Part shown: positions 12,109 through 30,451 of the stretch, piece after piece
Layout: every line of letters begins with the position of its first letter
Position numbering within the stretch: position 1 is the stretch's first letter
Source: Alicyclobacillus herbarius DSM 13609
GTDB taxonomy: Bacteria; Bacillota; Bacilli; Alicyclobacillales; Alicyclobacillaceae
NCBI RefSeq assembly: GCF_000430585.1
Contig: NZ_AUMH01000023.1
Location: forward strand, 1-43,808
DNA: 43,808 nt
Direction of reading: 5' to 3'
Translations under genes and position numbers: made by a program
The notes under the pieces: generated by a model
What the model saw: only the letters and a program-made list of their open reading frames with translations
What the model was told of the DNA's origin: nothing
The model's database searches: none

Positions 12109-13569
12109 GTGAACGTATACACAAAGGTAACAGAACCTTCACGAACGACAGCTAATCTGAGCATGCGCGGATTTTCGACCGTCGTGCGGACGAGCTGGTC
12201 CGGTGCCCGCGCCCAAGCTTCCCGTACGAAATGGGGGAAATGGCTCATGCTCTATTTGCTGGACCTTGCGCTTCTATATGCATCGGTTGTCTTGTCGTTT
12301 CTCCTTCGCTTTGGTACGCACTGGCCGACGGCGAACTGGGAGGCTGCTCTGCACCTGTTGCCGTACCTGTTAGGGCTGGCGGCACTACTGAGCTACCTGC
12401 TCGACCTGAACGGTGGGCCGCGCCGCAAGCGTATGGGCGAAATTGTCCCGATTCTCGTGTTTTTGAACGGGGCCTTATTTGTCCTCTGTCTGGCCCTCTC
12501 ATTTTGGACTCGCCAGTTTGCGCTCCCGCGCAGCATCGCGGTCACCGCGTGTCTGGTCAATCTCCTGCTCGGCGTGCTCCTGCGCGGCGCTTGGCAGCGG
12601 ATCAAACAGCGGTCCTTGCCCCGCCGGGCGGTGTTGGTGTGTCGCTCGGCGGGCGAGGGACAGGCCTTGCGGCGGCAGCTCCAGTCGGTGTCGACACCGC
12701 TGTTCCAGGAGCTGCGGATTGCGGCGGCGGGAGCCGAGCACCTGCGCCCACTCGAGGCCGACACGGTCATTCTCAGTCCGAACCTGCGTTGGGAGGACCG
12801 ACAACAGATGGCGCTCACGGCGCTTGAATCCGGGCAAGAGGTCAAGGTCATGCCGTCGGCTGCGGACCTGATGCTGAGCCGATGCTCCGTGGAGCAACTC
12901 GGCGATACGCTGTTGTTGTCGATGCATCCGCTCGGCATCTCGGCGGCAGATGCCCTGGTCAAGCGCGTGATTGACGTATTGGGTGCGCTCGTTCTGATGC
13001 TCGCCACTGCCCCCATCTCCCTCCTGTTATTTCTGCTCATTCCGCTCACGTCCCCCGGCCCCGCGCTGTATCGGCAAGACCGCGTGGGCCAGAACGGGCG
13101 GGTCTTCACCATTTACAAGTTCCGCACCATGATTCCGGAGGCGGAACGCACAACCGGCCCGGTCCTGGCCGCCGCGGGCGATCCGCGCGTCACCCCGTTT
13201 GGCCGCATCTTGCGTGCCACTCGTCTGGATGAGCTGCCACAGCTGTTCAACGTCCTTAAAGGGGACATGAGCCTGGTCGGCCCCCGTCCCGAACGTCCGG
13301 AGTTCGTCCGCCAATTCGAAATCCGCATTGCGGGGTACGGTCTGCGGCATGTGGTTCGGCCGGGACTGACCGGACTGGCCCAGGTGCTTGGCGAGTACTC
13401 CACCGATGCGGCCGAAAAGCTGCGTTATGACCTGTGGTACGTGCGCCACTATTCGCCCGCACTCGATTTGAAAATCCTGCTCCAGACCGTGTTTGTTGTC
13501 CTGCGTCCAAGTCGGGCGCGTGGGGTTAAGACGAACCCCATCCCACTGGACGCCAGTGTCAAGTCGTAA
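12109..13569 (+). CDS. Polyprenyl-phosphate glycosyl-1-phosphate transferase (initiating sugar transferase)
   Basis: The enzyme places the first sugar 1-phosphate on undecaprenyl phosphate at the membrane, starting repeat-unit assembly. The 486-residue protein has about four N-terminal membrane segments (residues 47-165), a central soluble domain, one further membrane segment ([20 protein letters not shown]) and the bacterial sugar transferase domain with [40 protein letters not shown] and GPRPERPEF. Start GTG 12109 lacks a clear ribosome site; ATG 12247, with GGGGGA at 12233-12238, would begin just before the first membrane segment and may be the real start. It is the first gene of the polysaccharide locus. 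Confidence 0.9.
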
Positions 13570-13602
13570 CGAAAACGATGCAAAGGTTGAGGAGGCGCCT
13601 AC

Positions 13603-14928
13603 ATGCTACAAACGACTACTGCGGCTCAACAGCTGCTGGAGCGCATTCACAGCCGCACGGCCATCGTGGCGGTCGTCGGTCTCGGCTACGTGGGTCTGCC
13701 GTTGGCGGTGGAAAAGGCGAAAGCCGGGTACACGGTCATTGGGCTCGACCGGAACCCGCGCCGTGTAACCGCGGTTAGCCGAGGCGAGAGTTATATCGAC
13801 GACGTCTCGACGCTCGAACTGGAACCTTTGGTGACAGCTGGACAGCTGCGGGCGGGTCAGGATTTCGACGTCCTCGTGGATGCGGACGTGATTGTCATCT
13901 GCGTCCCGACGCCATTGACGAAAAACCTTACCCCTGATTTGCAGTACGTTCGGCACGTGACGGAGGAAGTTGCGCAGCGACTGCGACCGGGGCAGTTGGT
14001 TTCGCTGGAATCCACCACTTATCCGGGGACGACGGCCGAGGTGATGCTGCCCATCTTGTGCCGGAGCGGACTCCTTCCCGACCAGGACTTTTTCTTGGCC
14101 CATTCCCCTGAGCGGGTGGACCCCGGAAACAAGCTGTTCACCACCAAGAACACTACTAAGGTGGTGGGGGCGATTGGGGAAACCTCGTTGCGTGTGGCGT
14201 CCGCCTTTTATGAAACCACCATCGACCGGGTGATTGCGGTCAGCAGCAGTCAAGCGGCCGAGTTGACCAAGGTGTTTGAAAACACGTTTCGAGCGGTCAA
14301 CATCGCGTTGGTCAACGAGTTAACGATGCTTTGTGACCGACTCGGGTTATCCGTTTGGGAGGTGTTGGATGCTGCGTTCACCAAGCCGTTCGGCATTATG
14401 CCGTTCTATCCTGGTCCGGGCGTGGGTGGCCACTGCATCCCTATCGATCCTCACTACTTGGAATGGAAGGCGAAAGAGGTCAACTTCCACACGCACTTTA
14501 TTTCCCTGGCGGGCGAGATCAACCGCAGGATGCCTGAGTTCGTCAAGGACAAGGCGGTGCGTGTTTTGAACGACGCGGGATTGGCCATTTCGGGTGCCCA
14601 TGTGCTGTTGGTCGGTCTCGCGTACAAAAAGAACGTCTCCGATGTTCGCGAGTCCCCCGCGTTGGAGGTCATGCAGCTCCTGCATCAGGCCGGGGCAGAA
14701 ATCGCCTATCACGATCCGTTCGTCCCCGAATGTGTGACGCCCATCGGTTTGCGAAAGTCCGTTCCGCTAACCGATTCGGTGCTTGCTCGCCAGGACCTAG
14801 TCGTCATTACGACCAACCATGACGAGGTGGATTATCGGCGCGTGGTCGAGCTGTCCCAGCGCGTCCTCGACACCCGCAATGCCACGCGGGACGTGCCGGA
14901 GAGAGATGGAAAGGTGTGGTTGTTGTGA
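13603..14928 (+). CDS. wbpA: UDP-N-acetyl-D-glucosamine 6-dehydrogenase (WbpA-like)
   Basis: WbpA oxidises UDP-GlcNAc to UDP-GlcNAc-uronate with NAD+. The 441-residue protein has the N-terminal Rossmann motif VVGLGYVGLPLAV, CVPTPL, ESTTYPGTT, the catalytic Cys in PGPGVGGHCIPIDPHYL and the C-terminal domain with GLAYKKNVSDVRESPALE. The GGHCIPIDP form is typical of UDP-HexNAc dehydrogenases rather than UDP-glucose dehydrogenase. ATG 13603 has GAGGAGG at about 13587-13593. The following three genes are WbpB-, WbpD- and WbpE-like, which supports UDP-GlcNAc as substrate rather than UDP-ManNAc. Confidence 0.88.
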   Translation: MLQTTTAAQQLLERIHSRTAIVAVVGLGYVGLPLAVEKAKAGYTVIGLDRNPRRVTAVSRGESYIDDVSTLELEPLVTAGQLRAGQDFDVLVDADVIVICVPTPLTKNLTPDLQYVRHVTEEVAQRLRPGQLVSLESTTYPGTTAEVMLPILCRSGLLPDQDFFLAHSPERVDPGNKLFTTKNTTKVVGAIGETSLRVASAFYETTIDRVIAVSSSQAAELTKVFENTFRAVNIALVNELTMLCDRLGLSVWEVLDAAFTKPFGIMPFYPGPGVGGHCIPIDPHYLEWKAKEVNFHTHFISLAGEINRRMPEFVKDKAVRVLNDAGLAISGAHVLLVGLAYKKNVSDVRESPALEVMQLLHQAGAEIAYHDPFVPECVTPIGLRKSVPLTDSVLARQDLVVITTNHDEVDYRRVVELSQRVLDTRNATRDVPERDGKVWLL

Positions 14929-15896
14929 CTCAGGTGGCGGTCATTGGTGCGGGGCAGTGGGGCCGGAATCTCGTACGTACGTATGCCAAGCTCGGGGTGC
15001 TAGCGGTGGTGGCTGATGTGGACGAGACGGCGCGCGCCCTGCTCAGCCAGGAACACTCGGAGGTGTCGTGGTGTACGGATTTCCGACAGATTTTGCAGAG
15101 TGACATCCCGGCGGTGGCCATTGCGACGCCGGCCGCCACGCACTATTCACTCGCCCGCGAAGCGCTGCTGGCGCACAAGGATGTGTTTGTCGAAAAGCCG
15201 TTGACCCTGTCGGTCAGTGAGGCGCGGCGTCTGGTGGAGATCGCACGGCGGACAGGGCGGGTGCTGATGGTGGGCCATCTGCTCCTGTTTCAGCCGGGGA
15301 TTCAGAGGTTGAAGCAGTTGATTGATGAGGGGAGGGTGGGCGTTGTCCGCAGCATCCATCAGGAGCGGGTCAAGTTGGGCCGTGTGCGCACCGTTGAGGA
15401 TGTGACGTGGAGTCTTGGCGTGCACGACCTGGCCGTGCAGCACTTTCTCATCGGTACGGCGCCAGAGCGGGTGCGCGTGGTGGCACAAAACGTGCTGCCG
15501 TCCGGGGTTGCGGATGACGCCTATCTACACCTGGGATACCCTGGCGGGACGTGGAGCCATCTGCATGTTTCCTGGCTGTGGCCCATCTCACGACGGAGTC
15601 TGACCGTGATTGGCAGTGAGGGCATGTTGGTGTTCGACGAGATCGCCCAAACCTTGACGTATCACCACAAGGGGGTTCATCCCAATCTCGAGGTGTACGA
15701 CGAGGGAGAGGAGATGGTCCTCTCTTCCAGCGAATCGGCGTTGGAGTTGGAGTGCCGTCACTTTCTCGAGTGTGTCGAAACGCGCCGGAAGCCGATTGCG
15801 GACGGGAAGCAGGGGTTGGCGGTGGTCCAGGTGCTGGAGGCTGTGGCGGAACAGCTACGGGTCAGGCGTCGTGTGCGGAGAGGGGGATACCGGTGA
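14925..15896 (+). CDS. wbpB: Gfo/Idh oxidoreductase, UDP-GlcNAc-uronate 3-dehydrogenase (WbpB-like)
   Basis: WbpB oxidises C3 of UDP-GlcNAc-uronate to the 3-keto sugar used by WbpE. The 323-residue protein has the Rossmann motif [20 protein letters not shown], the VEKPLTLS family motif and the [18 protein letters not shown] segment typical of this subgroup, then [13 protein letters not shown]. Start GTG 14925 makes a GTGA overlap with wbpA and has AAAGG at 14911-14914; GTG 14916 is an alternative. Order and overlap with wbpA, wbpD and wbpE are the main evidence for the specific reaction. Confidence 0.83.
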
Positions 15897-16531
15897 ACGA
15901 GTCTCTGTATGATGTCCACCCCTCCGCCTGGGTCGACGAAGGGGCAACGATTGGGGAAGGAACGCGCATCTGGCATTTTTGCCACATATCCAGCCGCGCG
16001 CACATCGGTCGGGACTGCAATCTCGGACAGAACGTGTTTGTCGCAGATAACGTCGTCATCGGCAACCGCGTGAAGATCCAGAACAACGTGTCGGTCTACG
16101 AGGGCGTTACCCTCGAGGACGAGGTGTTTTGCGGTCCAAGTGTGGTCTTTACCAATGTCCGCACACCGCGCAGCGGCGTGCCGAGATCGGCCCATGAGTA
16201 TGAAAAGACCCTGGTCAAGCAAGGGGCGACGCTTGGGGCCAATGCGACCATTGTCTGCGGCGTCACCATCGGCAAGGCGGCCTTAGTCGCGGCTGGTGCG
16301 GTCGTTACCCACGACGTTCCCGACTACGCACGGGTGGCCGGCGTTCCGGCGCGTCTGGTGGGTTGGCAGTGTTGGTGCGGCGAAAAGCTCACCTTTACCG
16401 CAGGCGAGGCCCGTTGTCAGTGCGGGCGGGTGTACCGCCGGAGTCAAGACGGTGTAAACGCGATTGTTACTCAGGACGGTCTCGCCAGGCATGAAATACC
16501 GACCGTACAGGCGAAGGGAGCGACTCTTTGA
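15893..16531 (+). CDS. wbpD: Left-handed beta-helix N-acetyltransferase (WbpD-like)
   Basis: This enzyme acetylates the 3-amino group of UDP-2-acetamido-3-amino-glucuronate with acetyl-CoA. The 212-residue protein is built from hexapeptide repeats ([28 protein letters not shown]-like turns, [34 protein letters not shown]) and has the family loop FTNVRTPRS. The C-terminus adds a Cys-rich tail (CWCGEKL, CQCGRVY) resembling a small zinc ribbon, as seen in some homologues. GTG 15893 overlaps the wbpB stop (GTGA) with a G-rich site at 15880-15886; the frame continues upstream without a better start. Confidence 0.88.
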
Positions 16532-17670
16532 TGACCGTTCAGACCCCCTTACGGATTCCAATTTTTCATCCGGGAACCGAGTGGAACGCCTTGTCCGCGG
16601 AAGTGCTGGCGGCCGTCGAGCGTGTGCTCCGGGACGGACAGTTCATCCTCGGCCCAAATGTGCGTGCCTTTGAAGAGGAAGTAGCCGCCTACCTCGGCGT
16701 GCGTCATGCGGTCAGCGTCAACTCCGGAACGGATGCCCTGGTCATCGCCCTGCGTGCGGCTGGGATTGGCCCCGGGGATGAAGTCATCACGACGCCGTTC
16801 ACGTTTTTTGCCACGGTGGAGGCGATACACCACGTGGGCGCCTCGCCCGTGTTTGTGGATATCAATCCGGATACGTTTAACATCTGCCCAGAGGCTGTGG
16901 AGTCTGCGGTCACGGAGCGGACCAAGGCACTGCTGGTGGTGCATCTGTTTGGTCGCTCGTGTGCCATGGATGGCTTACAACGGGTGGCTGAGTCGTATGG
17001 GCTCCGGTTGGTGGAGGACTGTGCGCAGGCGTTTGGTGCCACTTACCGCGGCCGTAAGGTCGGAACGATGGGTGACGCCGGGTGTTTCTCGTTTTTTCCT
17101 TCCAAAAATCTGGGGGCGATTGGGGATGGCGGCCTGATTGCCACGAACGACGACCGTCTGGCTGAATTTGCTCGCATGCTGCGCACGCATGGGGGACGGG
17201 ACAAATACCGGAACGAAATGGTCGGTTACAACTCGCGGTTGGACGAGGTGCAGGCTGCGGTTTTGCGCGTCAAGCTGCCGTATGTGGACGCTTGGAACGA
17301 GCGGCGGCGGCAGATAGCGCAGGTGTATAACGCAGCTTTTGCGGGTCTTGACGGGGTGAACACCCCGGAGGGCGCTCCGGAGTTGGAGCATGTGTATCAC
17401 CAATACACGCTCCGCTTCCCGGCCGCGGTGCGCGACGCTGTCCAGCAACGGTTGGCTGAAGCCGGTGTCGACAGTAAAGTGTACTACCCAGTGCCTGTGC
17501 ACCGACTGCCGCTGTATGGCGAGGGCCAGCCTGCGCAGCCGGAAGCGGAGCGAGCGGCGGCGGAGGTGTTGTCCCTGCCGATGTGGCCGGGGCTGGGAAA
17601 GGAACAGCAGGAGCGTGTCATTCAAGCCGTGAGCGAGGTGTACCAATGGGCCATGTCGCGTTGGGTGTGA
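16531..17670 (+). CDS. wbpE: DegT/DnrJ/EryC1/StrS PLP aminotransferase (WbpE-like)
   Basis: WbpE transfers an amino group to the 3-keto sugar nucleotide. The 379-residue protein has the family blocks VRAFEEEVAAYLGVRHAVS, NSGTDALVIAL, VEDCAQAFGATYRGRKVGT and the PLP lysine in FFPSKNLGAIGDGG, followed by LRTHGGRDKY and YNSRLDEVQAAVL. ATG 16531 has AAGGGAG at 16514-16520 and overlaps the wbpD stop by one base. It completes the route to UDP-2,3-diacetamido-2,3-dideoxy-glucuronate. No WbpI-like C2 epimerase is seen, so the gluco rather than manno isomer may be used. Confidence 0.92.
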   Translation: MTVQTPLRIPIFHPGTEWNALSAEVLAAVERVLRDGQFILGPNVRAFEEEVAAYLGVRHAVSVNSGTDALVIALRAAGIGPGDEVITTPFTFFATVEAIHHVGASPVFVDINPDTFNICPEAVESAVTERTKALLVVHLFGRSCAMDGLQRVAESYGLRLVEDCAQAFGATYRGRKVGTMGDAGCFSFFPSKNLGAIGDGGLIATNDDRLAEFARMLRTHGGRDKYRNEMVGYNSRLDEVQAAVLRVKLPYVDAWNERRRQIAQVYNAAFAGLDGVNTPEGAPELEHVYHQYTLRFPAAVRDAVQQRLAEAGVDSKVYYPVPVHRLPLYGEGQPAQPEAERAAAEVLSLPMWPGLGKEQQERVIQAVSEVYQWAMSRWV

Positions 17671-19112
17671 GGACGAGGGGGCTGAAGGCGTCCTTCTTGC
17701 GCGAGACAACCCTGCTGGTGGGCGGTACCGCGCTGGCGCAAGGGATGGCCATTCTCGCCACACCACTACTCACACGGGTGTACGGACCTGCCGATTTTGG
17801 CGTCTACGCCACGTACACGAGCCTGCTGTCGATTCTCGCCGTTCCGGTGTGTCTGCGCTATGAACAGGCGATTGTGCTGCCCGAAGACGATGTGGAATCG
17901 CTGCGCGTGTTGGTGATTTCCTTGTTGGCAACCCTTGGGTTTTCGCTGCTGGTGTTGGCCCTGACCGGGTGGTTTGGAGGTAGCCTGAGTCGGCGACTGC
18001 ACGCTCCCACCCTGGGGAACCGCCTCTGGCTTTTGGCCGTGGCGCTGGCAGCCACCGGGCTCTACCGGGCGCTGAGCGCCTGGGCAAGCCGGCAGGCGCG
18101 CTTTCTCGCGGTGGCGCGGACAAAGGTGACCCAAGTCCTCGGCCAGTGCGCGATTCAGGTGGGCCTGGGCGCTGCCACACACAGTATAACTGGCTTACTG
18201 ATTGGGGATGTGGTGGGTAGAGCGGGCGGATCGACCAGTTTGGCCATGGGATTGTGCCGGCGCAGCGTATGGCAGGGGCTCAGCTGGCGGGAACTGGGAC
18301 GCACCGCCCGCCGCTACGCACGCTTTCCATTGGTGTCCACCTGGGCGAGCCTCTGCAACGCTCTCAGCCTGCAGCTGCCACCGCTTTTAATGGAAGGGTT
18401 GTTCAATCCCACGGTAGCCGGCTGGTACTCCTTGTCCTACCGCGTCCTGGCGGCGCCCTTGACGCTGATTGGCCAGGCGGTAGGACAGGTGTTTTACACC
18501 CGGGCGGCGCGCCTGACCGACGATAATTCCCAACTCGCACGCCTGACGAGCGGCGTGGCGGTGTACCTCTTGGCTGCGGGCATGCCGCTGTTTACGTGGC
18601 TCGCGGTAGCGGGCGAGCAGGTGTTTACGCTCGTGTTTGGATCCCACTGGAGCACCTCCGGCGTGTATGCGAGTTGGCTGTGTCCGTGGTTCCTAGTGTG
18701 GATGGTCAGCAATCCCCTAAGCAATCTGCTGTTCATTCGCAATTGGCAAGGCTTGAACCTGGCGGTCACTCTGGGGGAACTAACGACGCGGGTGGCCTCG
18801 GTATGGGTGGCGAGTGTGTGGGCGTCGCCGGAGTGGGCGATGCGCCTGCTCTCCGGCGCCGGTGTCGGTGTGGCCGTGTTGTCCCTCTGCCTGTTCCTGC
18901 GGGCCGCTCGCGCCTCGCGGGTCCAGATGTTGGCACGGATGTGTCTAGTGCTGATGACGGCACTGCCGTTTGTTCCTTTGTACCTGGTTGCACGAGCGTT
19001 CCCGATGCCGGGGTTTTGGCTGCTCTCCGTCGTGGGGATTGGCCTGCACTACGTCGCCTTGGGGCTGCTCCTGTTTTGGCAATCGGGCAAACGGTGGGGG
19101 TGGACAGCGTGA
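17646..19112 (+). CDS. Polysaccharide flippase (Wzx/MATE-like membrane protein)
   Basis: This 488-residue, highly hydrophobic protein has roughly 12-14 predicted membrane segments and the N-terminal family pattern LLVGGTALAQGMAILATPLLTRVYGPADFG. It probably flips lipid-linked repeat units across the membrane. ATG 17646 lies 25 bases inside wbpE with GAGGTG at 17634-17639; GTG 17667 would give a GTGA overlap like its neighbours and is a fair alternative. The order flippase, glycosyltransferase, polymerase supports a Wzx/Wzy-type pathway. Confidence 0.87.
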   Translation: MGHVALGVRTRGLKASFLRETTLLVGGTALAQGMAILATPLLTRVYGPADFGVYATYTSLLSILAVPVCLRYEQAIVLPEDDVESLRVLVISLLATLGFSLLVLALTGWFGGSLSRRLHAPTLGNRLWLLAVALAATGLYRALSAWASRQARFLAVARTKVTQVLGQCAIQVGLGAATHSITGLLIGDVVGRAGGSTSLAMGLCRRSVWQGLSWRELGRTARRYARFPLVSTWASLCNALSLQLPPLLMEGLFNPTVAGWYSLSYRVLAAPLTLIGQAVGQVFYTRAARLTDDNSQLARLTSGVAVYLLAAGMPLFTWLAVAGEQVFTLVFGSHWSTSGVYASWLCPWFLVWMVSNPLSNLLFIRNWQGLNLAVTLGELTTRVASVWVASVWASPEWAMRLLSGAGVGVAVLSLCLFLRAARASRVQMLARMCLVLMTALPFVPLYLVARAFPMPGFWLLSVVGIGLHYVALGLLLFWQSGKRWGWTA

Positions 19113-20374
19113 GAATCATTTATGTCACGTCCAGTTTTCCGTACGGTCCGGGGGAAGCGTTCCTGTTGCCGGAGCTCACCTACCTGCGGGATGCAGGGCA
19201 TGACCTGTGGCTGATCCCGCTGTTTGCCAAGGGGGACGTGGTGCACAGCGGGGCGCAAGCCTTCCTTCCGCAGACACTCGTCTGGCCAAAAGCCAAAGCC
19301 CGGCTCCTGCTCCAGGGGTGGGTTTGGTTGCTGCAGAACCCGGGTCTGACCGTCACCACGGTTCAATCTGTACTCTCCAGCCGGACCTTTGGCATGCGCC
19401 TCCGGAACTTCTACTGCCTCCTGTTGGCCGCAGCTTTGGCCAGTGACTACGGCAGTTGGGAGGCCGACCTGATTCACGCCCACTGGCTGCATTACCCATC
19501 CAGTTTCGCCATGCTGCTCAGCACCCTCACTGGGCTGCCGTGGGTGGCGACCGGCCATCGCAACGACATCCTGGCCGACAACCTCCTCGGTGAGAAACTG
19601 GACTCCGCCGGCTTTGTGCGCTTCATCTCTGAATCAGGCCTAGAGGCGGCTCGCGCTCTCGCTCCAGAGGCAAACTTTCGCCACGCCTGCGTCTTGCACA
19701 TGGGGGTGGATGTGGGACAAATGAGAACGCCAGGGGAAGGGCAAGTTCCGTCGGGACCGCCGGTTCTGTTATGTCCAGCCCGACTCAGCGAGGTCAAGGG
19801 CCAGCGCTACCTGCTGGAGGCGGCGCGCCAGGTGCTTCAACGCGGCCAGAGATTTTCCCTGTGGCTGGCAGGGGATGGGCCGATGCGAAACGAGTTGGAG
19901 ACTCGCGCGAAAGAGTTGGGGCTCGCGGAGGTGGTTCGCTTCCTAGGCGTGGTCGACAACGAGACCCTCAAATCCTGGTATGTACAAGGCGTCGTGCAGG
20001 CGGTCGTCCTGCCCAGCCTGCATGAGGGGATCCCGGTCGCCTTGATGGAAGCGATGAGCTGTGGCGTACCCGTGATTGCCACGGCAGTGGGGGGGACGCC
20101 GGAGTTGGTGCGCGACGGGGCTGGCATCTTGGTGCCGCCTAAAGACGCGACGAGCTTGGCGGACGCGATGGAGCGCATACTGACGGACGCGCAGGCCTGT
20201 GCGGAGATGTCCGCGGCGGCCTCGCGCGTAGTGGCCGAATCGTTTTCGATTGAGCGAATTGGTCCGAAACTGGAGGAACTGCTCGGCCAGCACGTCCGGC
20301 TGACCAGTGGATTATACGGAGACCGTCTGGCCCCATCGGATGCGGCTGTAAGGCCAGCGAGAGAAGAGGTCTGA
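19109..20374 (+). CDS. Glycosyltransferase family 4
   Basis: This 421-residue GT-B enzyme probably adds a sugar to the lipid-linked intermediate. It begins VRIIYVTSSFPYGPGEAFLLPEL, has the central HAHWLHYPSSFAML region, LLCPARLSEVKGQRYLLEA, GDGPMRNELE and the GT4 donor motif with two Glu residues in HEGIPVALMEAMSCGVPVIA, followed by GGTPELV. GTG 19109 makes a GTGA overlap with the flippase stop and has a G-rich site; the frame runs far upstream inside the flippase but only as shadow sequence. Donor and acceptor cannot be read from the sequence. Confidence 0.9.
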   Translation: MRIIYVTSSFPYGPGEAFLLPELTYLRDAGHDLWLIPLFAKGDVVHSGAQAFLPQTLVWPKAKARLLLQGWVWLLQNPGLTVTTVQSVLSSRTFGMRLRNFYCLLLAAALASDYGSWEADLIHAHWLHYPSSFAMLLSTLTGLPWVATGHRNDILADNLLGEKLDSAGFVRFISESGLEAARALAPEANFRHACVLHMGVDVGQMRTPGEGQVPSGPPVLLCPARLSEVKGQRYLLEAARQVLQRGQRFSLWLAGDGPMRNELETRAKELGLAEVVRFLGVVDNETLKSWYVQGVVQAVVLPSLHEGIPVALMEAMSCGVPVIATAVGGTPELVRDGAGILVPPKDATSLADAMERILTDAQACAEMSAAASRVVAESFSIERIGPKLEELLGQHVRLTSGLYGDRLAPSDAAVRPAREEV

Positions 20375-20377
20375 TGT

Positions 20378-22954
20378 GTGATGTCCATGTGGAAAGTGCC
20401 TGTATCGACGAAGTCATCCGCCTTAGCAGGGCCACAGCCGCTGGCGTGGACCATAGTCGAGAACGGTTTTTTATTCTTGTTCCCGCTTACGGCTGCGCTC
20501 GGTCCCTACCTGTTGCCGCTGCATGTTCTGGGAATCAATGCCTATGGGTTTCGCGTTTTCGTGTTGCTTTGTGCGGTTGTGTCGGGTGTGGGCTGGTTAA
20601 GACGGCCGCGTCTGCCGCGTGCTCCGATTCTGATTGGCTACCTCAGTCTGGGTGCGCTGTGGGTCATTTGGGGTGGTCTGTCGCCCCTGTGGGCCGGTAA
20701 GGCGTCTCAACCACTGGCCTTGTTGGATGTGGTGCTCGGCTTTCTCGTTGCACTCCCGCTTGCACGTATTGCGAATCGTCCGGCTGAAGCGCAGCTGGTC
20801 AGTCTGCGCCGCGGTTGGGTTGCCGCCTATCTGGCAGCTTTGGCGGTGGCGGCTTGGGAACTGGTGAGCAATCACCATCTGCCCGGGTATTACGCAGAGC
20901 ACGCCTCGCCATGGAAGCTTCACCACGTAGTCATCGCGACCTTTGAGAACCCCAACAACTACGCTGCGTTTATCACCCTTAGCCTACCCTTTCTGTGGTG
21001 GTCGTGGCGGTGCGGCGGCCGGGTCGCAAAGGGAGTCTACGGTGTCCTGCTGCTGACTGTGCCAGCCCTGCTCGCCCTGACGGCCGGGCGGCTTGGGATT
21101 ATCGGTGCAGTCCTCGCATTGGCCTTGCTCACAGGGTTCCGCGTGCGCACCCTGCGCGGGCTGATCTGGGCCGCCTGCGGCTGGGGCGTGATGTACCTGG
21201 TATTTCAGGCTGGTCTCAGCTTCAGCGCCTCCGACGCGGAGAAAATCCGTCACACCTTAGGTACGCCCACATTCTCTGGTGCCGAACCCCTGGGTTCTAT
21301 CGGCCAGCGTCTGAATCTGATTCGGAACGGAATTCACTTCACCCTTCTCTCTCACGGTTTGGGCTTTGGGCCGGGGAGCTTTGAGTACCTAATGAGCCAC
21401 CACGTAGGTATCTACCCGACCGGCGGCATCATCAATCCGCACAACTTCTGGATGGAGGTGTTGAGCGAATACGGCGTGATTGTGTTCTGCGGCTTGCTGT
21501 TCTGTCTGGCGGCGGTCTTCCTGGCCGCCTGGCGGGTGCGCAGGGACACACCCAAAACACAGGTTAACATTCGTGCCGCCGCTGAGGTGGTTCTGGCCGG
21601 TCTGCCCGGATATGGCTTTGCCGCCATGGAACACAGTTCCTACATTAACCAGCCGGTCAACTGGGCGTTCCTCACTTCCATAATGGCCATGGCGGTTGTG
21701 TTACGCGGCTTGACCGCGTCGGCTGGGGAGAAGATCGAGGCAAGTCAGGAGGGGGACAGCCGTCCACGAGTGGTGCACCTGACCAGCGTCCATGGGGCCA
21801 CAGACACCCGAATTTTCATCAAGGAGTGTCGCACCTTAGCTGCGGCTGGGTATGAGGTGGTCTATCTCGTACCCGGCGGCCAGGGAGGATGGCAGGATGG
21901 CGTGCACATTGTCTCGGTAGGCGACCGAATGAACCATCGGCTGCTGCGGATGACGGTGCAGGTGTGCCGAGTGCTGTGGTGGTGTCTGGCAAATTCCGCG
22001 GACCTCTACCATTTTCACGATCCAGAACTGCTTTGGGTGGGCTGGCTCCTCAAGGCGCTCCGGAGACGGGTTATTTACGACGTGCACGAGGACGTCCCGC
22101 AGCAGATTCTATCACGCCACTGGCTTCCCAGGTGGGTGAAAAAACCGCTCGCTTGGTGGATTGGGCGCTTGGAGCAAGCCACCGTGCGGAAGGTGGATGC
22201 GGTGGTTGCAGCCACCCCTTTTCTCGCCCAGCGCCTTAGGCCTGCTGCCCGGCGCTGCGTGGTGGTGCGAAATTATCCGAGGATTGAGGAATTGAAGCCA
22301 GCAGCACTGGAGAAACGGGCGATCCGTACGCCGGACAAAGCCTTGGTCACCTACGTGGGCGACCTGACGGCGCCGCGCGGGGTGTGTGAGATGGTGGCGG
22401 CGATGGAGAAGGTGAATACCAGATGTGAAGCCGTATTAGCCCTGGCCGGTCACGTTTCTCCCCCAGAGTTGCTCACCCGTCTCAGCCAGACGGCTGCTTG
22501 GCAATACGTCGACTACCAAGGCTGGCTTTCTCGATCCGAGGTGCGAAATCTGTTGCATCGCTCGGATGTCGGGTTGGTGCTGATTCACCCTGAGCCTCGC
22601 TATCAGCAGGCGTATCCGGTGAAGCTGTTCGAGTACATGGCGGCGGGCGTGCCAGTGGTGGCCTCCAATTTTCCAGTCTGGCGCGAGATTGTGGAAGGCA
22701 GTCAGTGCGGGCTGTGTGTCAATCCACTCGATGTTGACGCCATCGCGGAGGCTGTCTGCTGGATCTTGGAGCATCCCCAGGCGGCTCGGGCCATGGGCCA
22801 AAACGGGCAGGCGGCGGTTTGCTCTCGCTACAGCTGGGACTCCGAGGCAGAGGCGCTGCTGGCATTGTATGGCGACCTGCTGGGCCTCCCTGCGGCGAAA
22901 AATTTCCCTGTCGAAGACGCACCCGTCTGGGCGTCGGCCAGCGCGCTGAAATAG
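20378..22954 (+). CDS. O-antigen polymerase/ligase-like membrane protein fused to a GT4 glycosyltransferase
   Basis: This 858-residue protein is made of two normally separate proteins. Residues about 1-450 form a multi-membrane O-antigen ligase/Wzy-like domain with the signature region LLSHGLGFGPGSFEY and NPHNFWMEVLSEYG. Residues about 462-835 are a complete GT4: VVHLTSVHGATDTRIFIKEC, YHFHDPELLWVG, YDVHEDVPQQ, YVGDLTAPRGVCEM and KLFEYMAAGVPVVA. GTG 20378 or ATG 20381 follow AGAGG at 20364-20369. At the junction (21747-21755) AGGAGGGGG lies 14 bases before GTG 21770, so the transferase may also be made alone. The protein is likely to polymerise or ligate repeat units and also build them. Confidence 0.85.
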   Translation: MMSMWKVPVSTKSSALAGPQPLAWTIVENGFLFLFPLTAALGPYLLPLHVLGINAYGFRVFVLLCAVVSGVGWLRRPRLPRAPILIGYLSLGALWVIWGGLSPLWAGKASQPLALLDVVLGFLVALPLARIANRPAEAQLVSLRRGWVAAYLAALAVAAWELVSNHHLPGYYAEHASPWKLHHVVIATFENPNNYAAFITLSLPFLWWSWRCGGRVAKGVYGVLLLTVPALLALTAGRLGIIGAVLALALLTGFRVRTLRGLIWAACGWGVMYLVFQAGLSFSASDAEKIRHTLGTPTFSGAEPLGSIGQRLNLIRNGIHFTLLSHGLGFGPGSFEYLMSHHVGIYPTGGIINPHNFWMEVLSEYGVIVFCGLLFCLAAVFLAAWRVRRDTPKTQVNIRAAAEVVLAGLPGYGFAAMEHSSYINQPVNWAFLTSIMAMAVVLRGLTASAGEKIEASQEGDSRPRVVHLTSVHGATDTRIFIKECRTLAAAGYEVVYLVPGGQGGWQDGVHIVSVGDRMNHRLLRMTVQVCRVLWWCLANSADLYHFHDPELLWVGWLLKALRRRVIYDVHEDVPQQILSRHWLPRWVKKPLAWWIGRLEQATVRKVDAVVAATPFLAQRLRPAARRCVVVRNYPRIEELKPAALEKRAIRTPDKALVTYVGDLTAPRGVCEMVAAMEKVNTRCEAVLALAGHVSPPELLTRLSQTAAWQYVDYQGWLSRSEVRNLLHRSDVGLVLIHPEPRYQQAYPVKLFEYMAAGVPVVASNFPVWREIVEGSQCGLCVNPLDVDAIAEAVCWILEHPQAARAMGQNGQAAVCSRYSWDSEAEALLALYGDLLGLPAAKNFPVEDAPVWASASALK

Positions 22955-22956
22955 CA

Positions 22957-22980
22957 GGTCCGGAAAAGCAAGTCCGGACC
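22957..22980 (+). other. Intercistronic hairpin with TCCGGA core
   Basis: GGTCCGGA (22957-22964) and TCCGGACC (22973-22980) form an 8-bp stem with an 8-nt loop just after the fusion-gene stop. It resembles the hairpin at 9129-9150 and has no T-run. Confidence 0.55.
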
Positions 22981-23002
22981 AACCTCTGAAAGGGTGACGT
23001 AC

Positions 23003-24151
23003 GTGAGTACCGGGTTTTGGCTGACCGTGCTGCTGATCGTTTTTCCATACACCGGATACCCGTGCTTGCTGTGGGCGCTGACAAAATGTATGCGGACACC
23101 GCAGAAATCGCGAACACCTGACTCCGTCGGGCCTGCGGCGTCCTTGCCGTCGGTGAGCCTCATTATCTCGGCGTACAACGAGGCCGACGTCATTGAGGAC
23201 AAACTGCGTAACACGCTCGCCATGGATTATCCCAACCTGGAGGTGGTCGTGGTTTCGGACGGATCGACCGATGACACGGAGGACATTGTCGCTCGGTTTG
23301 CGGACGCTGGTGTGCGGCTTGTGGGCCTGCCTCAGAATCAGGGGAAAACCGCGGCACAAAACTGCGCGGTAGAGGTCTGCCGCGGGGATATCCTGGTTTT
23401 TTCTGACGCCAACTCCATGTACGCTCCAGACGCCATCTCGGAGCTGGTAAGGCCGTTTGCCGACGCCAATGTGGGCTGTGTTTGCGGCGAGCTTCGGTAT
23501 ACGTCGCCAAGTTCGGGCGGATCGGCCGCGGAGGAAGGCGTCTACTGGCGGTTCGAGCGCTGGATAAAGCGACTGGAGGGCCGCCTGGGATTGCTGTTAG
23601 GGGCAAACGGCTCCATTTATGCCGTCCGGCGTGCATGCTACGTTCCCCTTCCGGCTGACATCATCAGTGACCTGGTGGAGCCGCTCTTCGTCTTAGCGCA
23701 GGGTAGGCGCGTGGTCTACGTCCCGAGCGCATATGCCATGGAGTCGACGTCCAGCACAATGGGGGTCGAGTTTCGCCGCAAACGCCGCATTGTCACCCGC
23801 AGTCTGCGCGGGGCGTGGTATGCAAGGCGCATTCTTTCGCCCTGGCGGCACCCACTGTTGACGCTCTTGTTCCTCAGCCATAAAGGGTTGCGCTGGCTGG
23901 CGCCCGCCTTGTTGGTGGCTGCGTTCTGGTTGAACGCCCGTTTGGCCCTTAAGTCAGAGACTTACGCGGTGTTACTCACCATGCAACTCGTGTTCTACCT
24001 GTTGGCTGGGATTGGCGTGTTGGCGCCGCGGCTGAAGAGTCGGCTGGTCACGCTGCCGACCTACTTCTGCGTCGTGCATACGGCCGCGTTATTAGGGCTG
24101 TGGCACGCTATCTGCGGCGGCAAGGTGGTCACCTGGAAGCCGTCGCGCTAA
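23003..24151 (+). CDS. Membrane glycosyltransferase family 2
   Basis: This 382-residue GT2 enzyme has one N-terminal membrane segment, a GT-A domain (SLIISAYNEADVIEDKL, VVVSDGSTDDT, the DXD-like FSDANSMY, GANGSIYAVRR, DLVEPLFVLAQGRRVVY) and about three C-terminal membrane segments. This topology resembles N-acetylglucosaminyl- and hyaluronan-type transferases. GTG 23003 is preferred because GAAAGGGTGA ends six bases upstream; GTG 22994 lies within that site. It follows the polymerase fusion and precedes UDP-glucose dehydrogenase. Its exact product is unknown. Confidence 0.87.
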   Translation: MSTGFWLTVLLIVFPYTGYPCLLWALTKCMRTPQKSRTPDSVGPAASLPSVSLIISAYNEADVIEDKLRNTLAMDYPNLEVVVVSDGSTDDTEDIVARFADAGVRLVGLPQNQGKTAAQNCAVEVCRGDILVFSDANSMYAPDAISELVRPFADANVGCVCGELRYTSPSSGGSAAEEGVYWRFERWIKRLEGRLGLLLGANGSIYAVRRACYVPLPADIISDLVEPLFVLAQGRRVVYVPSAYAMESTSSTMGVEFRRKRRIVTRSLRGAWYARRILSPWRHPLLTLLFLSHKGLRWLAPALLVAAFWLNARLALKSETYAVLLTMQLVFYLLAGIGVLAPRLKSRLVTLPTYFCVVHTAALLGLWHAICGGKVVTWKPSR

Positions 24152-24209
24152 GGCCTGCACGCTGCCGTGTCTCAGGCGTGGGAACTTCATTCACTACGAG
24201 GTGAGAAAC

Positions 24210-25520
24210 GTGAAGGTGATTGTGATTGGCGCGGGGTACGTCGGTTTGGTCACGGCCGTTTGCCTCGCGGAGCTGGGGCATCAGGTGACGGTCCACGATA
24301 CGGATGCGGATAAAATCAGCCGCTTGCAGGCCGGGCGAACGCCGTTTTACGAGCCTGGACTGGAGCAAGCACTGCAGACGCAGGTGAATCTGGGACGGCT
24401 GGAGTTTGTTGGTACCGTGAGAGCGGACTGTGACTGGCAGGTGGCGCTGGTGGCGGTGGGTACACCCGCAGACGCGGACGGCGGGGCTGATCTGCGGGCG
24501 GTGTTTGCCGCGGCTGCGACCTTGGCCCGCACCTTGCCACTCGGGGCGGTGGTCGCGTTGAAAAGCACAGTGCCGGTGGGGACGGCCAACCGGATTGGCA
24601 GGTGGCTTGCCATTCACGGACGCGAGGATTTGCGAGTCGCTTCTGTACCGGAGTTCCTTCGGGAAGGCTCGGCCCTTGCCGACGCTCGCCAGCCCAATCG
24701 CCTCGTTATCGGCGTAGAGGACGAGGGTGCGTTGACGGTGTTGCGAGAACTGTATGCCGGGGTTGACGCCCCGGTGGTTTACTGCGACTGCGCCAGCGCG
24801 GAAATGACGAAGTATGCGTCCAACGCCTTCCTGGCGACGAAAATCTCGTTCATTAACGAGATTGCCAACATCTGCGAACGGACGGGAGCGGACGTCCGGC
24901 GTGTAGCTGAGGGCATGGGACTTGATCCACGCATCGGACCGGATTTTCTCCGCGCCGGGCTGGGCTACGGCGGGTCCTGCTTTCCCAAAGACACGCAGGC
25001 GTTGGTGCGCATCGCCGGGGATGTGGACTATGACTTTCAACTCCTCAAGGCGGTAGTCCGCCGCAATCAGGAGCAACGAACCGAGCCGGTGCGGCAGTTG
25101 ACGGAGTGGCTGGGGGATTTGTCCGGGAGGCAGGTGGTGTTGTTGGGCGTAGCCTTCAAGCCCCACACCGATGATGTCCGCGAGTCTCCAGCGCTGGACC
25201 TAGTCGCCTGGTTGTGGCAGCGCGGCGCCAGAATGCGTTTGGTCGATCCGGTGGTCCGCCGCGTCCTTTTGCCGGAGCTGGGTGTGGTCAAGGTGATGTC
25301 GGATGCCTACACAGCGCTTTCTGGCGCGGATGCGGCCGTGCTGGTGACGGAATGGCCAGAGTTTGTCCAACTGGATTGGCTGCGGGTGCGACAGGCGATG
25401 CGGCAGCCGTTTCTATTCGATGGCCGTAACGTATTAAATCCGCAACAGATGTTGGCTATGGGCTTCACCTTCCGTAATTTTGGCTGCCGTACACTGCGCC
25501 TGGCCGGCCAACTGAAGTGA
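24210..25520 (+). CDS. UDP-glucose 6-dehydrogenase
   Basis: This enzyme makes UDP-glucuronate from UDP-glucose with NAD+. The 436-residue protein has VIVIGAGYVGLVTAVCLAELGH, VAVGTPADADGGADL, STVPVGTAN, VPEFLREGSA, NAFLATKISFINE and the catalytic Cys in LGYGGSCFPKDTQAL, then GVAFKPHTDDVRESPAL. The GGSCFPKD form marks UDP-glucose rather than UDP-HexNAc dehydrogenases. GTG 24210 has GAGGTGAG at 24198-24205. It is the last gene of the polysaccharide locus and supplies a second uronate precursor besides that from wbpA. Confidence 0.92.
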   Translation: MKVIVIGAGYVGLVTAVCLAELGHQVTVHDTDADKISRLQAGRTPFYEPGLEQALQTQVNLGRLEFVGTVRADCDWQVALVAVGTPADADGGADLRAVFAAAATLARTLPLGAVVALKSTVPVGTANRIGRWLAIHGREDLRVASVPEFLREGSALADARQPNRLVIGVEDEGALTVLRELYAGVDAPVVYCDCASAEMTKYASNAFLATKISFINEIANICERTGADVRRVAEGMGLDPRIGPDFLRAGLGYGGSCFPKDTQALVRIAGDVDYDFQLLKAVVRRNQEQRTEPVRQLTEWLGDLSGRQVVLLGVAFKPHTDDVRESPALDLVAWLWQRGARMRLVDPVVRRVLLPELGVVKVMSDAYTALSGADAAVLVTEWPEFVQLDWLRVRQAMRQPFLFDGRNVLNPQQMLAMGFTFRNFGCRTLRLAGQLK

Positions 25521-25672: not shown

Positions 25673-25768
25673 ACAGGGGGAGTGATACCATCTCTAGTAA
25701 ATAAGTAGCAATCTTTGATAGACCTCTTGCCGGATTCGCTCCTCGACGTCAAAGGAGGAATGGCCAAG

Positions 25769-26335
25769 TTGGAAGGCACGAAGTGTTCCATCACGGTGTC
25801 GGTAAACGGGACGTCCTATACGCGGGAAGTGGAGCCGCGTCTGCTGTTGGTCCACTTTTTGCGTGACGAGCTGGGGTTGACCGGGACACACGTGGGCTGC
25901 GATACCAGCCAGTGTGGCGCATGCACGGTGCTCTTGGAGGGGAAGGCGGTCAAGTCGTGCACCGTACTGGCGGTGCAGGCCGACGGATTGAACGTGACGA
26001 CGATTGAGGGGCTGGGGAAAATCGACCAGCTCCACCCGGTGCAGGAAGGTTTTTGGGAGAAGCACGGGCTACAGTGCGGATTTTGCACGCCCGGCGTGAT
26101 TATGACGGCAGCCGGGCTGTTGGCGGACAACCCACACCCAAGTGAAGCGGAGATCCGCGAAGGATTGGAAGGGGTTATCTGTCGCTGCACAGGGTATCAG
26201 AACATCGTCCGGGCTGTGCAGTACGCGGCAGAGCGGACGACCGCGTCGCAACCTCAGCCGGAGGTGCAGGTGGCTGCAACGCGGGTGGAGGAAAGCGGTT
26301 CCACTCGCGATTCGGAAGGGGGGACAAAGGGATGA
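25769..26335 (+). CDS. Molybdenum hydroxylase 2Fe-2S subunit (CoxS/XdhE-like)
   Basis: This small subunit passes electrons between the Mo centre and FAD through two [2Fe-2S] clusters. It has the plant-ferredoxin motif [22 protein letters not shown]-like Cys spacing and the second-cluster motifs CGFCTPG and CRCTG, all complete. TTG 25769 is chosen because AGGAGG (25753-25758) is 10 bases away; ATG 25760 is only one base from that site, though it would be used if the spacing rule fails. The protein has 188 residues; the last 30, after the cluster domain, are poorly conserved. It is the first gene of the operon and overlaps the large subunit by four bases. Confidence 0.92.
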
Positions 26336-28680
26336 GCACCGTCTTTGGACAGGTGGTTAAACGCCGCGAGGACCCACGCTTTATCACGGGACGCGGACAG
26401 TACACGGACGATGTGCAACTGCCTGGTATGCTGTACGCGGCGATTCTGCGCAGTCCGCACGCACACGCCCGCATCATCAGCATCGACGTCGAGGCGGCCA
26501 AGCGGGCGCCGGGGGTGGTCGCTGTCTACACAGGTCGCGACCTGGCGGACAAGATGGGGACCGTCCCGACGGCCTGGATTCCCCCCGAGTCGAACCTGAA
26601 GACCCCGCCCCATTTTGCCTTGGCGGTCGATCGCGTCCGTTACGTGGGGGACGGAGTGGCCATGGTGGTGGCCGATAGCCGCTACGCCGCGCGAGACGCA
26701 CTCGACCTCATCTCCGTCCAGTACGAGGTACTCCCGGCGGTGGTGGATCAGGTTGCCGCGATGCGTGAAGGTGCGCCTGTTCTGCACGAGGAAGCGCCTG
26801 ACAACGTCGCCTTCCACTGGCAGGTTGGGAATGCCACGGACGAGGTGTTCGACCAGGCGGAGGTGGTCGTGCGACACAAAATTCGCCAGCAGCGCCTGGT
26901 TCCCAATCCGATGGAACCACGGGCTTCGGTGGCTCAATACAACCAAGCGACCGGCGAACTGACCGTCTGGGTCACTTCGCAGAACCCGCACATCCACCGC
27001 TTCATTCTGTCCGGCATCCTAGGCATTCCAGAACACAGGCTGCGCGTAGTGGCGACCGATGTCGGGGGCGGCTTTGGCGCCAAGATTGCCGTCTATCCAG
27101 ACGAGGCGCTAGTGGGATTTGCGGCCATCGATCTCGGGCGTCCGGTCAAGTGGACGGAAGACCGGCGGGAACACTTTGTGGCCACCACTCACGGTCGGGA
27201 TCACGTGGAGGAGTTGGAACTGGCCGGGACAAAAGACGGGCGCATTCAAGCCCTTCGCGTGCGAGCCTATGCCAACATGGGGGCGTATCTGTCGACGGCG
27301 GCCCCGGGGGTGCCGACGATTTTGTTCGGCCTGATTGTCCCGGGTCCCTACACCATTCCGTACGTGGGCGTGGACGTGTACGGAGTCTTTACCAACACCA
27401 CGCCGACCGATGCGTACCGTGGCGCTGGACGACCAGAGGCGACATACCTGATCGAGCGCATGGTCGATTTGTACGCGCGGGAAATTGGCATGGACCCGGT
27501 GGAGGTGCGCCGGCGCAACCTGATTCCGGCCGACGAGTTTCCGTACCACTCGCCGACCGGTCTGGAGTATGACAGCGGCAACTATCAGCTGGCCCTGGGG
27601 CGGGCGCTCGACATGGCCGATTACGACGGATTCCGCCGTAAGCAGAAGGAACTGCGGGCGAAAGGACGCTACATCGGTGTGGGCATCACCACGTACGTGG
27701 AAATCTGCGGCTTAGGCCCATCTCAGGTCGCCGGAGCGGTCGGATTTCAGGGCGGCCTATGGGACAGTTCTACGGTCCGCGTTCACCCGACCGGAAAGGT
27801 CACCGTGTTTACGGGCGCTTCTCCGCACGGACAAGGAGAGGAGACCACGTTCGCCCAAATCGTCAGCGACCGGCTGGGGGTGCCGGTGGAAGATGTGGAG
27901 GTGGTGCATGGGGACACCGCACGCATCTCCATGGGATGGGGAACGTACGGATCGCGCACGACCCCGGTGGCCGGCAGCGCACTGGCAGTAGCGCTCGACC
28001 GGGTGATTGACAAGGCGCGCAAGATTGCCGCGCACCTGTTGGAAGTGGACGCCGAGGACGTAGAGTGGGCAGACGGGCGCTTCCATGCGAAAGGGGCACC
28101 CAGCCGCAGCGTCAGCTTCCAGGATGTCGCCCTGCAGGCCCACCTGGCCTGGAACTTGCCGCAAGGCGTGGAGCCCTCGCTCGAGGCGCAAGCGTTTTAC
28201 GATCCGGCCAACTTTACGTACTCTTTTGGCACTCACATCTGCATGGTTGAGGTCGATCCGGATACGGGGGATGTGCGAATTGACCGGTATATCGCCGTAG
28301 ACGACTGCGGGCGGGTCATCAACCCGATGATTGCAGAAGGCCAGGTGCATGGCGGCATCGTGCAGGGCATCGGGCAGGCGCTCTGGGAAGGGGCGGTCTA
28401 TGACGAACAAGGTCAGTTGGTGACCGGCACCTTTATGGATTACGCGATGCCAAAGGCGCGCTTTTTTCCCAACTTTGAGACGGCCTTCACCGAAACCCCA
28501 GCTCCGCACAATCCGCTCGGGGTAAAAGGGATTGGCGAAACGGGGACGATTGCTGCGACACCGACGGTCGTTAACGCTGTGTTGGACGCTTTGACGCCGT
28601 TCGGGGTGCGGGAGATTCCGATGCCGCTGACGTCGGAGCGTGTCTGGCGGGCGATTCAGGAAGGGGGGCGTGAGGAATGA
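26332..28680 (+). CDS. Molybdenum hydroxylase large subunit, form II CoxL-like
   Basis: This 782-residue subunit binds the Mo-cofactor and substrate. The N-terminal domain has [15 protein letters not shown] and SPHAHARI; the Mo-cofactor region has [21 protein letters not shown] and the catalytic Glu in [14 protein letters not shown]. The active-site loop is AYRGAGR (361-367), the form II signature, not the AYxCSFR loop of proven CO dehydrogenases. It may therefore act on an aldehyde, a purine or another substrate, and CO oxidation should not be assumed. ATG 26332 overlaps the small-subunit stop (ATGA). Order S-L-M followed by MoxR and VWA genes fits Cox-type operons. Confidence 0.92.
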
Positions 28681-29531
28681 TTCCACAGACGTTCGCCTAC
28701 CGGCGGGCCGGTTCCGTGGCTGAGACGATTGCCATTCTGCAGGAAGACAGAGGAGCCAAGCTGTTGGCAGGCGGTCACAGCCTGCTGCCGTTGATGAAGA
28801 TGCGCCTGGCTAATCCCGAGACCCTGGTCGACATCAGCGGGGTGCGCGAACTGCGCGGTGTGGAAAAGGTCGGTGACGAAATCGTCATCGGGGCGCTGAC
28901 CACCCACGCCGAGGCCGCGAAAGACCCATTGATTCAACGTCACCTGCCGGCCTTGGCTGAGGCAGCGGCACAGGTGGGCGACCTACAGGTGCGAAACCGC
29001 GGTACTGTCGGCGGGAACCTCGCCCATGCCGATCCGTCCTCCGATTTGCCGGCGGTGGCTCTGGCCTACGAGGCTCGGCTGACGGTGATTGGACCAGAAG
29101 GGAGAGAAGCCATCGCGGCCGAAGATTTCTTCCTTGGTCCGATGGTCACCGCGTTGCCGGAGGGACACGTGGTTTCCTCGGTGGCAGTTCCTATTCCGGC
29201 TGCCAACACCAAGAGCGCTTATCTGAAGTGCCCGCATCCGGCCTCCGGGTATGCGGTGGTCGGCGTGGCTGCTGCGGTGGCGGTGAGCGAAGACGGAACG
29301 GTGGAGCACGCTCGCGTCGGGGTGACCGGAGCCGGGGATTGTGCCTACCGTGCCTACGCGGTGGAAGAGGCCCTTTTTGGGCAGACGGTATCCTTGGAGC
29401 TCATCCAGGAGGCCGCGAGACACGCGGCTGAGGATGGCTCCATCGGATCGGACATCTACGCCTCGGAGGACTACCGGCGCCACCTGTGCGCGGTGTATAC
29501 GGAGCGGGTGCTGCGGAAGGTGTTGCTGTGA
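28677..29531 (+). CDS. Molybdenum hydroxylase FAD-binding medium subunit (CoxM-like)
   Basis: This 284-residue protein has the FAD-binding type 2 motifs AGGHSLLPLMKMRLANPETLVDI-like N-terminus (29-36 AGGHSLLP), a second FAD loop RNRGTVGGNLAHADPSSDLP and the C-terminal CO-dehydrogenase flavoprotein domain ending in EDYRRHLCAVYTERV. It oxidises the iron-sulfur subunit and passes electrons to a quinone or another acceptor. ATG 28677 overlaps the large-subunit stop by four bases. Confidence 0.92.
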   Translation: MIPQTFAYRRAGSVAETIAILQEDRGAKLLAGGHSLLPLMKMRLANPETLVDISGVRELRGVEKVGDEIVIGALTTHAEAAKDPLIQRHLPALAEAAAQVGDLQVRNRGTVGGNLAHADPSSDLPAVALAYEARLTVIGPEGREAIAAEDFFLGPMVTALPEGHVVSSVAVPIPAANTKSAYLKCPHPASGYAVVGVAAAVAVSEDGTVEHARVGVTGAGDCAYRAYAVEEALFGQTVSLELIQEAARHAAEDGSIGSDIYASEDYRRHLCAVYTERVLRKVLL

Positions 29532-30451
29532 ATCATTCGTTTCAGGGTCCAGAGGACGTCGAGCGGGCGTTTGCAGAGGCGGGATACATCACGGATGAGG
29601 CGCTGGCAACTAGCGTGTTTCTCGCCCTGACGCTCAACCGTCCACTGTTCTTGGAAGGAGAGGCGGGGGTCGGCAAGACGGAGGTGGCGAAGGTGGCGGC
29701 CGCCGTCCTCGACCGCCCGCTCGTCCGTCTTCAGTGCTACGAAGGAATGGATAAGGCGAGCGCCCTCTATGAGTGGAATTACCCTTTGCAGCTGTTACAC
29801 ATTCGACTGTGGGAGCGCGAGGCCACGGACGCCAAGGGGCGCGAGGCGCTTGAGCAGGAGCTGTTTGGACCTCGCTTTTTGCTTCGCCGCCCGCTTTTGC
29901 AGGCTGTCAATCCGGACGGTCCAGCGCCGGTCTTGCTGATTGACGAAGTGGATCGCAGCGATGCGGAGTTTGAGGCGTTTTTGTTGGAGGTGCTGGCCGA
30001 GTTCCAGGTGACGATTCCAGAACTCGGTACCCTGCGTGCGGAGGAGGAGCCGTTGGTCGTCCTCACTTCCAATCGGACTCGTGAATTGCACGATGCCCTC
30101 AAACGTCGATGCCTGTACCATTGGTTGGATTACCCGTCTTTCGACAAAGAGGTACGCATCGTCCGCCAGCGGGTACCGGGCATCGGCGACCAGCTGGCTG
30201 CCAGCATCACGGCGTTCGTCCAGCGGTTGCGCCAGGAGCCTTTGTTCAAGGCGCCTGGGGTGGCCGAGACCCTGGAGTGGGCGGAGGCCCTGCAGGCGCT
30301 CGGCACAGTCCGTCTTGGTCCAGACCAGGTGACGGCGACACTCGGGTGTCTGGTCAAGTATCGGGACGACTTAGACCTCCTTCTGGGTGAGCGCGGCGGT
30401 GACCCTTCGCCCATTCACCGTCTATTGCGGGAGTCGGGGGCGACAGGATGA
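29528..30451 (+). CDS. MoxR-family AAA+ ATPase (CoxD-like)
   Basis: This 307-residue ATPase has Walker A GEAGVGKTEVAK, Walker B VLLIDEVDRSD and a sensor region LTSNRTRELHDALKRRC. In Cox operons the equivalent protein helps mature the Mo-Cu or Mo active site together with the VWA protein. GTG 29528 makes a GTGA overlap with the FAD subunit and has GGAAGGTG at 29513-29520; the frame extends upstream without a better site. Confidence 0.9.
   Translation: MNHSFQGPEDVERAFAEAGYITDEALATSVFLALTLNRPLFLEGEAGVGKTEVAKVAAAVLDRPLVRLQCYEGMDKASALYEWNYPLQLLHIRLWEREATDAKGREALEQELFGPRFLLRRPLLQAVNPDGPAPVLLIDEVDRSDAEFEAFLLEVLAEFQVTIPELGTLRAEEEPLVVLTSNRTRELHDALKRRCLYHWLDYPSFDKEVRIVRQRVPGIGDQLAASITAFVQRLRQEPLFKAPGVAETLEWAEALQALGTVRLGPDQVTATLGCLVKYRDDLDLLLGERGGDPSPIHRLLRESGATG

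Follow-up and report, generated by a model that had tools for sequence, protein, structure and literature searches.

Does an open reading frame that joins a Wzy-type membrane protein to a GT4 glycosyltransferase record a true merger of two genes, and does the ribosome-site-like sequence at its seam still permit separate translation of the second half? The frame lies in a window of 43,808 nt, the whole stretch of DNA that was analysed, which is one whole contig of the draft genome of Alicyclobacillus herbarius DSM 13609 (3.31 Mb in 57 contigs, with a listed completeness of 99.97% and a contamination of 0.03%). It is a single open frame of 858 codons, running from its GTG to the stop without an internal stop codon (Table 1). 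An earlier note on this DNA had described an 858-residue frame with a Wzy-like membrane half and a full GT4 half, and this description holds, given the open frame and the Pfam domains above cut-off within it. On balance, we think it likely that the frame truly joins a polymerase gene to a glycosyltransferase gene within a Wzx/Wzy-type polysaccharide cluster.

Table 1. Features of the fused frame, its seam and the surrounding cluster (positions in the window)
Feature	Position	Strand	Remarks and basis
Polysaccharide cluster around the fusion	12109..25520	+	scans of ORFs; same-strand run
Wzx-like flippase	17583-19112	+	
Upstream cluster GT4	within 18596-20374	+	
Fused Wzy-type polymerase / GT4 glycosyltransferase ORF	20378..22954	+	858 aa; GTG 20378, alternative start ATG 20381
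Wzy/WaaL-type membrane half	20378..21751	+	~residues 1-458; Pfam Wzy_C, alignments A2/A4, model, Foldseek WaaL 7tpg
AGGAGGGGG	21747..21755	+	anti-SD complementary; read as relic ribosome site of former GT4 gene
AGC codon, Ser461	21758..21760	+	aligns with start Met of standalone GT4s L018 and L019
GT4 half	21758..22951	+	~residues 461-858; Pfam, alignments A1/A5, model
GTG GTG, Val465 Val466	21770..21775	+	sole in-frame ATG/GTG/TTG codons close by, lying 17 and 20 nt past AGGAGG
GT2	22994-24151	+	
UDP-glucose-dehydrogenase-like protein	24201-25520	+	

Both halves are recognised by their families. Wzy_C (PF04932) matches residues 225-372 with 41.7 bits, passing the Pfam gathering score of 31.7, and GT4 domains span residues 484-829, the best at 74 bits against a cut-off of 27. 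N- and C-terminal GT4 domains lie above their gathering cut-offs (PF13439 at 52.8 against 28.5, PF13692 at 74 against 27, and PF00534 at 69.1 against 26.4). The top NCBIfam match of the Wzy half, at residues 87-447, is the equivalog NF047675 for TuaE, of the teichuronic acid polymerase family of Bacillus; the model is without a GT4 part, and the match fails its cut-off (73.5 of 400 bits). Codon scores were trained on 256 long ORFs taken from 400 kb of this genome. By these scores frame 0 outranks both other forward frames in each of the 15 listed 30-codon segments (starts 21338-22178), seam included, and composition is alike in the Wzy and GT4 halves (GC 0.600 vs 0.613, GC3 0.700 vs 0.704). 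Within the GT4 motif EX7E, the second E (E752) is invariant in the GT4 relatives of alignment A5. The first position (22607-22609) holds Gln744 in this protein, whereas the 24 relatives in the same alignment have D, V, E or N, and this variability suggests that the motif is loose in this GT4 subfamily.

The Wzy half shows the WaaL-like arrangement of about 12 helices and a large outer loop with conserved Arg and His, in a model built with nine sequences (mean pLDDT 66, pTM 0.70; 12 long helices by our own count). The loop, residues 281-366, precedes the last three helices and contains R311 and H355, which are invariant in alignments A2 (14 rows) and A4 (9 rows). A Foldseek search with this half returned WaaL (7tpg_B) first, with an E of 1.3e-8 and a TM-score of 0.58 by query, as the sole match at E <= 0.001; FtsW and a peptidoglycan synthase chain came next with E near 0.07. 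Lysine and arginine number 11 in the 58 residues of the modelled inside loops and 6 in the 140 residues of the outside loops. An even number of helices, together with a catalytic loop outside, would leave both ends of the Wzy half inside, and the GT4 half is placed by this model on the cytosolic side. For the GT half only, we used a whole-protein model, which is poor across the Wzy half; pLDDT is above 80 in 36 of the 40 ten-residue blocks of the GT4 half, and the linker at 448-459 is modelled below pLDDT 50.

The surrounding cluster is a Wzx/Wzy-type polysaccharide locus, with an initiating glycosylphosphotransferase (TIGR03025, above cut-off), nucleotide-sugar enzymes, a Wzx-like flippase, a GT4, the fusion, a GT2 and a UDP-glucose-dehydrogenase-like protein in this order. 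Among the cluster ORFs scanned, the fusion is the sole polymerase-like gene recognised, so the Wzy half fills the polymerase's place, and the membrane half is probably a polymerase. Within the cluster, positions 13603-17670 consecutively encode a nucleotide-sugar dehydrogenase, a Gfo/Idh/MocA oxidoreductase, a hexapeptide acyltransferase and a DegT aminotransferase, a set reminiscent of the WbpA/B/D/E route, which leads to a 2,3-diacetamido uronic acid. The window also holds, at 6373-12029, genes for a rhamnose-isomerase-like protein, an FGGY kinase, an aldolase-II/short-chain-dehydrogenase fusion and a DeoR regulator, which together look like a deoxy-sugar catabolic operon, and, at 25715-32629, a CO-dehydrogenase-like molybdenum hydroxylase operon (2Fe-2S, MoCo-binding and FAD subunits, an AAA ATPase, and CoxE-like VWA and XdhC/CoxI proteins).

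How the two halves are arranged in relatives bears directly on the origin of the frame. We compared 131 loci with a homologous GT4, these being the loci out of 154 with a GT4 match at 1e-20 (the remainder was dropped). A separate Wzy-type gene stands directly upstream in 26 of them, meaning -40 to +300 nt from the Wzy stop to the beginning of the GT4 match, and elsewhere in the locus in 10. No Wzy-type gene was found within the compared stretch in 94 loci, which is an upper bound because loci from the genome searches carry flanks of just 1.5 kb; L126 is counted among these, yet another search shows its match from residue 285. The GT4 is fused to a Wzy half in one locus, the one studied here. 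Wzy queries included the Wzy proteins of seven relatives, and some rows are thus self-matches; 22 of the 26 adjacent Wzy genes were recovered with the Wzy half of the fusion as query. The count includes duplicate rows (L015 and L052, Aneurinibacillus danicus, share contig number and coordinates), and L141-L154, where the GT4 match is too weak, lie outside it, as do L175-L199. The 26 adjacent pairs make Wzy and GT4 genes recurrent neighbours. Split neighbours such as those in L011, L012, L023, L117 and L124 have the same families, order and strand as the fusion, but they are two genes, each with its own stop and start. The earlier note had offered a gene merger as one origin of the frame and had proposed looking for split genes in relatives; relatives were found split, and the merger gains support. 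A chance meeting of two domains was considered and rejected, because both pass their cut-offs and their families recur as neighbours. Longer fused proteins of another kind were also seen. In L028 (1489-3885) and L022 (reverse strand), a homologous GT4 sits in a 798-aa frame directly after a separate Wzy-type gene; these resemble the fusion in holding such a GT4 inside a longer protein, but the partner is a second, C-terminal GT4 (located in L028 by domain scan) and not a polymerase. L134 encodes another two-GT4 protein, of 828 aa.

The two halves differ in how closely they are matched elsewhere. Standalone relatives of the GT4 half occur in several phyla, at up to 48-49% identity, and most matches begin at query residues 449-468; the Wzy half diverges more. 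Among the matches listed, in a sample centred on a Planctomycetaceae genome, the closest Wzy relative shares 36% identity over residues 28-446 (33% over 412 columns by BLASTP), and it precedes a different GT4, which scores 30 bits to the GT4 half here. The closest GT4 relatives (L009 and L015-L017, 44-47%) have no Wzy detected within their 1.5-kb flanks. Since the closest GT4s show no Wzy in these flanks and the closest Wzy has another GT4, these two particular genes may have come together newly and not be long-standing neighbours.

The Wzy-GT4 fusion is known from one genome only. Within the host's own order (59 genomes, its own included), 14 others match, with the GT4 half alone, at 24-31% identity. 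A scan of named genomes with the whole protein as query found no relative, and none is fused among the 80 top-ranked loci, out of a longer list, from a scan with alignment A1. Plasmids contributed 113 matching records, none covering 80% of the query. Samples of 345, 246 and 398 genomes came from three further phyla, each centred on the genome of one locus (from a Bacteroidales, a Planctomycetaceae and a Massilia, respectively); no match among those listed covers both halves in one open frame. The genome searches took in 1951 genomes in all, repeats counted, and list the best-scored candidates per genome with E below set limits (1e-12 to 1e-40), so that weak fusions may escape. Five listed matches (G309, G278, G219, G736 and G1030) start well within the Wzy half and run on into the GT4 half, but they contain stops; four of them, G736 not included, are separate ORFs.

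At the seam, AGGAGGGGG and the in-frame GTG at residue 465 are where the earlier note had put them. The AGGAGG ends at 21752, leaving 5 nt to the AGC codon of Ser461, and the standalone GT4s of L018 and L019 begin MSRKVVHLTSVH, which places their Met at this serine. On the other side, the closest Wzy relative ends near residue 458 (14 residues past the position of residue 444) and overlaps the next gene by 13 nt, and the Wzy-type tails of L012, L117 and L123 end at about 451-462 in a hand count, ungapped from the conserved W429. With a Wzy end near 458 and a GT4 start near 461, the join would insert nearly nothing. In L123 and L124, a GGAG lies within the final Wzy codons, 4 nt upstream of the first of two candidate GT4 ATGs. 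As for the motif itself, the 291,660 sense coding bases sampled from this genome contain AGGAGG 115 times, or about 0.012 expected per 30 nt, and AGGAGGGG five times; of 3000 coding stretches of 30 nt picked at random, 121 pair with the anti-SD at least as strongly (dG <= -11.5). A rare AGGAGG, set beside this share of strong pairing, makes a chance origin of the seam site unlikely, not impossible, and the argument for a relic rests on the placement of the site more than on the motif. The best reading of AGGAGGGGG, in our view, is that of a relic ribosome site at which internal initiation is weak at most. The seam resembles a snapshot of neighbouring or overlapping genes merging, in which the ribosome site persists as coding sequence and the start codon is lost.

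A functioning internal start is the alternative that the seam itself suggests. Besides the full-length fusion, ribosomes that also enter at AGGAGGGGG and start at GTG 21770 or 21773 would yield a meaningful amount of free GT4. At -11.7 kcal/mol, the site pairs with the anti-SD about as strongly as the best starts of 241 local genes do in the median (-11.4). Two GTG codons follow in frame, and a wobble-rich nine-base register, suggested by the computed fold, may cut the effective spacing by about 3 nt. However, GTG 21770 is 17 nt from the AGGAGG, and no start codon is found 5-9 nt after the site. In a local survey with mechanically chosen start codons, AGGAGG precedes the candidate start in 48 of 256 ORFs, with a spacing of 0-12 in 47 and of 17 in one. 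The standalone GT4s examined start at least two residues before GTG 21770, and, since the first GT4 strand is modelled at E464-468, a product from that codon would begin inside the strand. An out-of-frame start was rejected, the only other ATG, GTG or TTG in 21741-21800 being ATG 21792 in frame 1. The separate translation suggested in the earlier note is thus weakly supported, the SD-like site being present but the nearest start codon lying 17 nt away. We judge substantial dual expression unlikely, and GTG 21770 may yield a little free GT4.

Two further readings concern the assembly and the function of the membrane half. The simplest artefact is a one-base error in the G5 run at 21751-21755, one base too many there joining two overlapping genes. 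Minus one G, the first frame would run for 467 codons to a stop (...GTAVHEWCT) and overlap GTG 21770; overlapping Wzy/GT4 pairs occur elsewhere (L188, by 13 nt, and L124), and the genome sequence is a 57-contig draft. Yet the GT4 would still lack a start codon at the usual spacing from the site, which makes the artefact less likely, and the coding score stays in frame on both sides of the seam and across it, in a genome listed as near complete and with little contamination. We regard such an error as very unlikely. A single substitution error was rejected as well, as two proper genes need a stop plus a start. As for function, the Wzy_C family takes in ligases as well as polymerases, and the top fold match is the ligase WaaL, so the membrane half could be a ligase or oligosaccharyltransferase, acting for instance on the wall or on an S-layer protein, instead of a chain polymerase. 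Against this, it belongs to the sole such ORF recognised beside a flippase, an initiating transferase and glycosyltransferases, and its best NCBIfam match is TuaE, though far under the cut-off. The ligase reading seems to us quite unlikely.

Under the favoured reading, a true fusion, the main product would be one 858-aa chain. Its 12-helix N-terminal half would link lipid-anchored repeat units on the outside of the membrane, and the C-terminal GT4, which a linker of roughly twelve residues would tether at the inner face, would add one repeat-unit sugar from a nucleotide sugar. AGGAGGGGG would be the former ribosome site of the GT4 gene, now coding, with the Wzy stop and the GT4 start lost or shifted out during the merger; the merger reading draws on the position of the site, which lies 5 nt ahead of the codon matching the former start Met in the alignment.

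The closest known system is WadA of Brucella, described as a bifunctional protein whose N-terminal domain is a glycosyltransferase and whose C-terminal domain is an O-antigen ligase, and as the first such enzyme known to its authors (PMC9938171). A second source reports WadA as bimodular, GT121 with GT25, in five genera (PMC10920833). As far as these accounts and the modelled topology go, WadA and the fusion both carry a cytosolic glycosyltransferase and a WaaL-type membrane enzyme with an outside active site in one chain. However, the WadA-type architecture, an N-terminal GT25 and then GT121, is not that of the fusion, which has the membrane half first and a GT4 second, and WadA acts on the Gram-negative LPS core, whereas the membrane half here is probably the polymerase of a Bacilli-type host. 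At the level of titles and abstract beginnings in the open-licence PubMed Central literature, WadA was found and a Wzy-GT4 fusion was not. A single chain of glycosyltransferase and WaaL-type domain is thus already known, and the Wzy-GT4 combination would be a new version of that arrangement. According to PMC10666635, subunits of heteromeric complexes are over-represented among gene pairs a short distance apart, and this fits a gene pair prone to fuse.

Given the modelled topology and the WadA precedent, it is plausible that the fusion couples sugar transfer to polymerisation. Rather unlikely, and offered tentatively, is a fuller version of this idea, a bifunctional polymerase with active sites on both membrane faces, in which the tethered cytosolic GT4 would couple unit synthesis to chain growth and the relic ribosome site would tune the balance of free and tethered GT4. 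A covalent link between a glycosyltransferase inside and a polymerase outside would support the view that Wzx/Wzy enzymes act as a complex, and the fused protein offers a direct test object for that view.
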